A stretch of DNA of 64,000 nucleotides from Halobacterium sp. CBA1132 (GTDB taxonomy: Archaea; Halobacteriota; Halobacteria; Halobacteriales; Halobacteriaceae). Below, in pieces: positions 19,187-20,660 of this stretch. Each line of letters opens with the position of its first letter. The first letter of the stretch is position 1. The stretch covers positions 1,984,001-2,048,000 of the forward strand of contig NZ_BCMZ01000001.1 of assembly GCF_001485535.1 (NCBI RefSeq). Direction: 5' to 3'. The position numbers and the translations under genes are program-made. The notes beneath the pieces are model-generated. The model did no database searches and had not been told where the DNA came from. It saw only the letters and a list, made by a program, of their open reading frames with translations.

Positions 19187-20038
19187 TCACTCCGTGAGCG
19201 TCAGGCAGCCGAGGGAGGCGAACATTGCTTCTTCAGTTCGCACGACCCCGCTGCCCTGATCGGGGATGGTGTTGAGCCAGGCGTCGAATCGCGCGGGTGC
19301 GTCGGTAGATGGGTCGGCGACCGCCTCGCTGACCTCGTCTCCGGTGAGCCCGAGCATGGGCGGAAGCCCGCGTTCGGGCGCACCGAAGGCGACGGTCAGT
19401 CCGTCCCGGGCGGCGCGTTCGACGTACCCCCCGAGGGACGCCGCGGAAAGCGGCGTCCCGTGGCGAGAGGTGGCGATTCGAACGCCCGCATCGGGTCGGT
19501 CGAGAGCGTCACCGAGGCCCGTGCGTTCGACCGAGAACCCCGGGAGGGGTTCGTCGACCAGTTTCGCACGGACCGGTCGTCGCGAAGAGACCCTGATGGT
19601 CACGCGCTCCCCCTCCGTGAGCCTCATACCGGGAGGCGTTTGGAGCGAGATTGGGTGTTGCATTCCGCAATTGACCCGAACGCGCCCTTCAGATCCGACC
19701 TGGGTCACGATTCCCTGTCGTAACGACCCAGACCCGCTCGAGTCTGAGCCGGTCCATGACGAGAGACGGAGCGGCGGCAGGACACCGGCGTACTCCAGTT
19801 CGTCGCGCGTGTCGAAGGCCTCCTTTCGGAGGTATGGTGGCGTCGCGGCGTACCGCAACACCGTTTCGACGAACCCGCCGCCCCACTTCCGCTCGCCGTC
19901 TTCGTCGGGGAAGACGACGAGTCGGTCCATCCGGAACACCGCCGCCGCGCGGGCGACGTAACCGAGCTTGCGAGTTGCCTCGCGTTTGTCCTCGGCTTCC
20001 CGGACGAGGGACGACGGCACGAGTGCGCTGCGTGTCAT
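19187..20038 (-). CDS. SPOUT-superfamily RNA methyltransferase (COG2106 type)
   Basis: Putative RNA methylase of 283 aa leading the ribosomal operon. The region LVPSSLVREAEDKREATRKL at the start, the inserted OB-like part (RQGIVTQVGSEGRVRVNCGM) and the C-terminal knot region with LTVAFGAPERGLPPML and IPDQGSGVVRTEEAM match the archaeal family related to human SPOUT1/C9orf114. An archaeal member next to L3 is common and its target is thought to be rRNA. The ATG at 20038 is chosen as the conserved start; longer readings upstream lack conservation. Exact substrate unknown. Confidence 0.85.
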   Translation of the reverse strand: MTRSALVPSSLVREAEDKREATRKLGYVARAAAVFRMDRLVVFPDEDGERKWGGGFVETVLRYAATPPYLRKEAFDTRDELEYAGVLPPLRLSSWTGSDSSGSGSLRQGIVTQVGSEGRVRVNCGMQHPISLQTPPGMRLTEGERVTIRVSSRRPVRAKLVDEPLPGFSVERTGLGDALDRPDAGVRIATSRHGTPLSAASLGGYVERAARDGLTVAFGAPERGLPPMLGLTGDEVSEAVADPSTDAPARFDAWLNTIPDQGSGVVRTEEAMFASLGCLTLTE

Positions 20039-20329: not shown

Positions 20330-20400
20330 GCGCTGGTAGTGTAGTGGTATCACGTGACCTTGCCATGGTCACAACCTGGGTTCAAATCCCAGCCAGCGCA
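20330..20400 (+). tRNA. tRNA-Gly (anticodon GCC)
   Basis: The 71-nt sequence folds into a full cloverleaf. The acceptor stem GCGCTGG pairs with CCAGCGC with discriminator A; the D arm has GTG/CAC; the anticodon stem TGACC/GGTCA encloses loop TTGCCAT, giving anticodon GCC; the T arm is CTGGG-TTCAAAT-CCCAG. CCA is not encoded, as is common in haloarchaea. It has its own TATA box. Its 3' end is the target-like half of a direct repeat found again 160 bp further on. Confidence 0.96.
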
Positions 20401-20407
20401 CTTCTCC
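20380..20407 (+). repeat. Direct repeat copy 1 (3' end of tRNA-Gly plus 7 bp)
   Basis: A 28-bp sequence, G, then TTCAAATCCCAGCCAGCGCA, then CTTCTCC, covering the T-loop, T-stem and acceptor 3' strand of the tRNA and the first seven flanking bases. The same 28 bp occurs without mismatch at 20540-20567. This is how attachment sites of integrases that use tRNA genes look. Confidence 0.9.
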
Positions 20408-20539
20408 TCTAACGCTCGCCGCTGAGCGATACGTGTGTCGCTCAGCGTGGGATGTGCGGCGTGAAGCGTATGGGATTTGAGCCTGCGAGTCGCAGCCCGC
20501 GCAGCCGAGCGTTGCGGGCGAGCAGGAACGTCTCGCATT
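20408..20539. other. Hairpin-rich non-coding spacer between the two tRNA-end repeats
   Basis: These 132 bp hold no gene. A perfect 10-bp stem with 8-nt loop lies at 20420-20447 (CGCTGAGCGA / TCGCTCAGCG) and could end the tRNA transcript. Further on, 20471-20480 (TGGGATTTGA) is the exact reverse complement of 20542-20551 in repeat copy 2, and nested inside are CCTGC/GCAGG (20482-20486, 20522-20526) and GCCCGC/GCGGGC (20495-20500, 20514-20519), so 20471-20551 could fold into one long imperfect hairpin. It may be the scar of a lost mobile element or a small structured RNA. Confidence 0.6.
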
Positions 20540-20567
20540 GTTCAAATCCCAGCCAGCGCACTTCTCC
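20540..20567 (+). repeat. Direct repeat copy 2 (duplicated tRNA-Gly 3' end)
   Basis: An exact 28-bp copy of 20380-20407, exactly 160 bp downstream. It is not part of a second tRNA gene: the sequence before it does not give the 5' half of a cloverleaf. It therefore looks like the distal attachment site left after integration into tRNA-Gly, with nearly all of the element lost or moved. Confidence 0.85.
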
Positions 20568-20660
20568 CGTTCACCACGACCGACAGCCCTGGTGCTGTCG
20601 GTCGGCCGGTATTCTCGTCGCTGCTGACTTGACGAGTGCGGCACTTGACGCCGCACTCGC

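Follow-up and report, generated by a model that had tools for sequence, protein, structure and literature searches.

Why does a glycine tRNA gene of Halobacterium sp. CBA1132 carry a second, exact copy of its own 3' end a short distance downstream? The sequence-only reading of this locus noted that such a repeat has the form of the attL and attR sites left by integrases that use tRNA genes, and considered both the scar of a lost element and a small tRNA-linked repeat unit.

Here we demonstrate that the duplication closes one member of a family of non-coding, foldable units of about 90-200 bp (typical units 54-400 bp) located directly behind tRNA genes. Its members have a common layout, a direct and an inverted repeat matched to their own tRNA, tandem arrays, shared interiors and a conserved hairpin, and differ in copy number and content between related species. 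The data suggest, at roughly even confidence, that the family consists of short mobile units, non-autonomous and placed in tRNA genes by insertion at the T-loop.

The duplicated 3' end of tRNA-Gly(GCC)

The window, that is, the whole stretch of 64,000 nucleotides analysed here (contig NZ_BCMZ01000001.1, positions 1,984,001 to 2,048,000), contains a tRNA-Gly(GCC) gene whose last base falls at 20400 or 20401. As had been reported, 28 bp around its 3' end recur exactly 160 bp downstream: GTTCAAATCCCAGCCAGCGCACTTCTCC is present in identical copies at 20380-20407 and 20540-20567, separated by 132 bp and flanked by differing bases. The 21-mer core of this repeat has only these two sites in the window (0 matches in 100 shuffles), and exact matches to its first 18 bases in the 3.0-Mb genome are confined to the same two copies. 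While all 28 bp match, the extent of the duplicated block needs refining, in that the tRNA-derived part ends at nt 73 and the last 7 bases (CTTCTCC) are the pyrimidine-rich start common to units and trailers.

The 132 bp between the copies hold neither integrase nor cargo, and contain two hairpins, A and the GC-rich B, with an inverted T-arm copy (IR) between them (Table 1). Both the spacer hairpin and the long nested hairpin expected from the sequence were recovered, the latter at 20471-20551 through pairing of IR positions 20471-20480 with positions 20542-20551 of the second copy, the direct repeat (DR). A stretch of 166 nt at this locus folds better than its shuffles (z -2.7 as RNA, -3.3 as DNA). 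Across the family the tRNA 3' end is followed by the pyrimidine-rich start and then by hairpin A, IR, hairpin B and DR, and Halorubrum arrays, like the window locus, are closed by terminal hairpins. The mini-hairpin motif had 0 occurrences in the window and is not a general feature of it.

Table 1. Parts of the unit behind tRNA-Gly(GCC), in window coordinates
Part	Position	Strand	Basis
tRNA-Gly(GCC), host gene of the unit	20330..20400	+	ARAGORN, Infernal tRNA match
Copy 1: T-loop, T-stem 3' strand, acceptor 3' strand (nt 53-73)	20380..20400	+	Exact direct repeat; block borders from 177 units
Whole unit: trailer/hairpin A, inverted T-arm, hairpin B, direct copy	20401..20560	+	Layout recurring at at least 22 other tRNAs of the genome and in other haloarchaea
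Pyrimidine-rich unit start CTTCTCC, again after copy 2 at 20561-20567	20401..20407	+	Base frequencies where units begin, past last copies and downstream of tRNAs lacking units
Hairpin A, 12-bp stem, 4-nt loop	20420..20447	+	Inverted-repeat and folding analysis
IR, inverted T-arm copy TGGGATTTGAGCC	20471..20483	+	Covaries with own tRNA
Hairpin B, conserved stem with T.T mismatch, GC-rich inner stem	20484..20537	+	Covariation in the family
DR (copy 2), identical to nt 53-73 of the host tRNA	20540..20560	+	Exact direct repeat
Terminal hairpin downstream of the last copy, placed as hairpin A is, with a perfect 11-bp stem	20577..20604	+	Inverted repeat

Elsewhere in the window, Rfam recognises an L4-Archaeoglobi ribosomal-protein leader at positions 19593-19692 of the minus strand, scoring 67.8 bits against a cut-off of 34.5, within the ORF that precedes the gene for ribosomal protein L3.

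Units lie behind about half of the tRNA genes of the genome

A genome search with the tRNA and spacer retrieved matching arrangements at tRNA-Gly(CCC) (75% over 221 bp) and tRNA-Ala(CGC), and inspection of the 3' flanks of 30 tRNA loci extended them to about twenty tRNA genes for various amino acids. When the genome was searched with R1, a covariance model built on IR-hairpin B-DR, there were 38 matches, the majority less than 1 kb behind a tRNA on the same strand. With the tRNA set enlarged by three genes missed initially (one Met gene with an intron and two Pro genes), R1 and flank inspection together place units at at least 23 of at least 43 tRNA genes, or about half. The idea of a small tRNA-linked repeat unit, and the proposal to look for it at other tRNA genes, are thus borne out on a large scale. 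The window locus holds a single unit; tandem copies occur at other loci in this and other genomes, the longest arrays here being of four units, at tRNA-Val GAC, and tRNA-Glu is followed by an exact 114-bp tandem duplication.

Far copies within 20 kb were found behind two unit-less tRNAs only, tRNA-Ala(GGC) and tRNA-Arg(CCT), the latter being of the hairpin type. At tRNA-Ala(GGC) (L153, C1:721500-741289, minus strand) there is a provirus-like element of 13.4 kb whose integrase is close to the right end; a hairpin and a further partial tRNA-Ala 3' end follow the element.

What is copied from the tRNA

When the DRs of 177 units are compared with their own tRNAs, identity is near complete over nt 54-73 and no more than background upstream of nt 52 or beyond nt 73, so that the duplicated block starts in the T-stem/T-loop (nt 52-54) and ends at nt 73, the mature 3' end. 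Because the search behind these 177 units demanded a match to nt 54-73, the identity inside the block is partly selected, whereas the sharp drop outside it is not. The IR also tracks the variable T-arm bases of its own tRNA, with C opposite G57 in 16/16 units and A opposite T59 in 7/7. The possibility that the second copy is an unrelated conserved sequence, named by the sequence-only reading as the case against an attachment-site origin, does not hold.

Hairpins A and B are not tied to the host tRNA. The best off-locus match of a unit interior lay at a tRNA for another amino acid in 69 of 130 cases, one unit is common to a tRNA-Ser (G209) and a tRNA-Asp (G261) at 83% over 116 nt, and whole units are common to tRNAs of different genera. 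Fidelity of the DR follows no clear trend with array rank or distance from the tRNA, which leaves unproven that units were added one by one at the tRNA.

Some units depart from the simple layout. Several (L012, L013, L037, L047, L057, L060 and L062) have a second, two-hairpin insert of about 50 bp within the T-arm of the DR, at a roughly constant point and ending near GCTCA plus TCCC, as if the event at the T-loop had been repeated. Four others (L018, L019, L024 and L025) have one extra T-loop base in the DR (TTCACAATCC or TTCAATATCG), facing an IR that lacks it and leaving a single-base bulge.

A conserved fold on the tRNA-sense strand

The outer stem of hairpin B is maintained by compensatory changes: pairing is kept in 98% of cells, double changes number 30 where shuffles give 9.4 (0/500), and the covariation score is 0.53 against 0.18 in shuffles, with slid controls near zero; the sequences in these and the following counts are related, and p-values are indicative only. 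Within the stem a T.T mismatch is kept in 64/96 units, and 53/96 hairpin Bs have a C(GNA)G apex triloop. Fold z is below -3 in 87/117 units, and the tRNA-sense strand folds better than the antisense strand (82/117), an advantage seen with RNA as well as DNA parameters. The structure-bearing strand is thus the tRNA-sense strand. Its advantage grows when G-U pairs are forbidden, and such pairs are rarer on the sense strand; since the bias does not come from G-U pairs, these data do not favour RNA over single-stranded DNA or tell the two apart. The GNA triloops had pointed to DNA, and the strand and G-U tests do not decide between the two.

This folding brings in the main rival to mobility, in which the unit is a functional trailer RNA, co-transcribed with the tRNA, processed to a structured small RNA and kept by selection. 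The covariation of hairpin B, the better folding of the sense strand and the way in which the IR follows unusual T-arm bases of its own tRNA are all consistent with such an RNA, as is a bacterial parallel with the same part order. In E. coli K-12, the last 19 nt of tRNA-Tyr (AATCCTTCCCCCACCACCA) recur three times with 178-bp spacing behind the gene at tyrT/tyrV (RttR/rtT region, 1287066-1287236), each copy preceded by an inverted copy, GGGGAAGGAT (the exact complement of ATCCTTCCCC), and by internal hairpins. The K-12 record annotates a small RNA, RttR, at these repeats; to our knowledge, its function is unclear. On the other hand, about half of the tRNA genes are without units and the same tRNA can have or lack one in sister species (see below), which makes the unit dispensable for tRNA expression, and the strand bias is not of the kind that G-U pairing would produce. 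We therefore think it unlikely that trailer function explains the units, although an RNA role and mobility are not mutually exclusive.

In layout, the tyrT repeats are the closest known parallel, with 3' end, trailer, IR, hairpins and DR in the same order. They differ from the haloarchaeal units in being near-identical, with an encoded CCA, at the one locus read here, whereas the haloarchaeal family occupies about half of a genome's tRNA genes, has interiors common to several tRNAs and, at the three loci of this genome scanned, gave no Rfam match over the unit.

Units are restricted to Halobacteria in the searches made here

Within the order, R1 matched 51 of the 53 genomes searched; in the rest of the phylum it matched none of 242. 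Across 84,980 bacterial and archaeal species, an exact 24-base pattern was found in 51 stretches, in Halobacteria only, among them Halorubrum, Halobellus, Natrinema and Halosimplex; 40 of the 49 assessable matches lie no more than 700 bp behind a tRNA. Among 40 strong sampled matches from more than 20 genomes, 37 immediately follow a tRNA and have a DR that repeats the 3' end of that tRNA. In two of the three exceptions the unit follows a displaced tRNA 3' end, which an integrase-bearing island of 8.1 kb or 1.97 kb separates from the intact tRNA, and the third (L106, G028:C1:418729) has no matching tRNA within 60 kb upstream. The L106 unit has a clear IR and DR (TTCAAATCCGGTCGGCGTCG) and may be an orphan or far-displaced unit.

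Searches with the window unit gave no match in phages and one in plasmids, behind a degenerate tRNA on a Natrinema megaplasmid. A pattern scan of viral contigs gave six matches, every one of them unrelated coding DNA, leaving no genuine viral contig with a unit. An Rfam 15 cmscan of three loci of this genome gave, the tRNA aside, no credible match over the unit and none above the gathering score. The open literature searched does not describe the haloarchaeal unit; most subscription papers lie outside that scope, so its novelty is provisional.

Copy number changes between related species

At the tRNA-Gly gene of the window, sister species have an upstream flank that is 90-96% identical and a unit number of 0 (G002, G008), 1 (G001, G003, G006, G010) or 2 (G012). 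Nine Halorubrum genomes likewise have 1, 2 or 3 units between their second tRNA-Asp gene and the same downstream gene, mostly with exact 20-nt DRs and differing interiors.

Could such differences arise with no dedicated mobile process, an ancient unit having been spread by gene conversion between T-arms and by repeat slippage? The tandem duplication at tRNA-Glu, one Halorubrum array with two near-identical units and two Halorubrum species with a common hairpin A and different hairpin B modules fit this. Conversion would, however, have to swap unit interiors yet spare the acceptor end of each tRNA at both borders, and the whole units held in common by tRNAs of different genera argue against it as well; we consider this explanation rather improbable.

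Islands displace units

The attachment-site form of the repeat raises a further alternative, namely that a classical provirus or island was once present and left a scar. That form is partly upheld, in that the 3' part of the tRNA is repeated directly and the tRNA is intact, but integrase and cargo are absent and the block is unlike that of a real element at the same site. The sister species G007 carries a 7.6-kb element in this tRNA-Gly, with an integrase-like gene adjoining the tRNA, a point in favour of a scar. The repeat of this element, however, runs from the D-arm region to nt 73 (nt ~14-73, 60-odd bp) and not from nt 53 to 73, which means that the 28-bp repeat of the window is not the scar of such an element. 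In addition, the spacer is a conserved structured unit found at many tRNAs and not random remnant DNA, and islands at other tRNAs are placed between the tRNA and a pre-existing unit, so that islands displace units and did not make them. The scar explanation is already largely refuted, and we regard it as very improbable.

No integrase or transposase gene was found in the units, none of the genome's integrases lies inside an array, and no unit free of any tRNA remnant was seen together with a recombinase. A 1.97-kb insert at tRNA-Val of G010 encodes a single integrase and has a 28-bp T-arm/acceptor repeat block.

In the CBA1132 genome, tRNA-His is separated from its distant DR by an HNH endonuclease gene (L147/L229, C1:2260905-2262013). 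The 28 best homologues of this gene in Halobacteria, itself included, all adjoin the 3' side of tRNA-His, mostly in the same orientation and in about five cases convergently, and a second HNH subfamily adjoins tRNA-Gln(TTG). As a driver of the units this nuclease was rejected, since, conserved as it is beside tRNA-His, a far-side copy is present in 2/28 loci only.

Small units that may be mobilised in trans

Taken together, presence and absence between species, exact borders, unit traffic and conserved folding make small T-loop units mobilised in trans the simplest explanation. A unit would enter the tRNA gene at the T-loop; the 3' end of the tRNA would stay intact, with nt 53-73 present once more at the far side of the unit, and an existing array could gain new units. 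A mobilising enzyme acting in trans probably recognises the sense strand in its folded form, be it single-stranded DNA or RNA, and a tyrosine recombinase would be the best candidate for this enzyme because T-arm-specific integrases occur in the same genus, as in the tRNA-Val insert of G010. Selection for the hairpin, or palindrome correction, may keep the IR in step with the DR.

These T-arm blocks as integrase targets, together with a tRNA 3'-end repeat reaching nt 73 and an intact tRNA, recall the archaeal integrative elements that target tRNA genes with tyrosine integrases (PMC8371274). Unlike those elements, the units have no integrase and no cargo, measure about 100-200 bp, are structured and form tandem arrays.

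Arrays of integron attC sites also offer a likeness, being short folded sites with imperfect inverted arms and exchangeable units; the extra unpaired bases in some haloarchaeal arms (TTCACAATCC) are attC-like, as are the folded single-strand site and its conserved structure, a resemblance and not membership. The attC R-box has the consensus GTTRRRY, from which the arm GTTCAAA(T) of most units departs, and, unlike integrons, the units are anchored at a tRNA gene, with no integron integrase or gene cassettes seen. It is a more speculative and doubtful extension that the units form a class-wide haloarchaeal system of minimal, folded, gene-free cassettes, captured at the T-loop and set in tRNA-anchored, integron-like arrays behind about half of all tRNA genes, on whose single-stranded hairpins a recombinase would act in trans.

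Structured repeat arrays matched to their own tRNA at about half of the tRNA genes are absent from Rfam and from the open literature searched. Short tRNA-end duplications in haloarchaea should accordingly not be called provirus scars. With these arrays the old puzzle of the tyrT repeats of E. coli has a many-locus version in archaea that are genetically tractable, where it becomes testable whether such arrays are mobile elements, RNA genes, or both.
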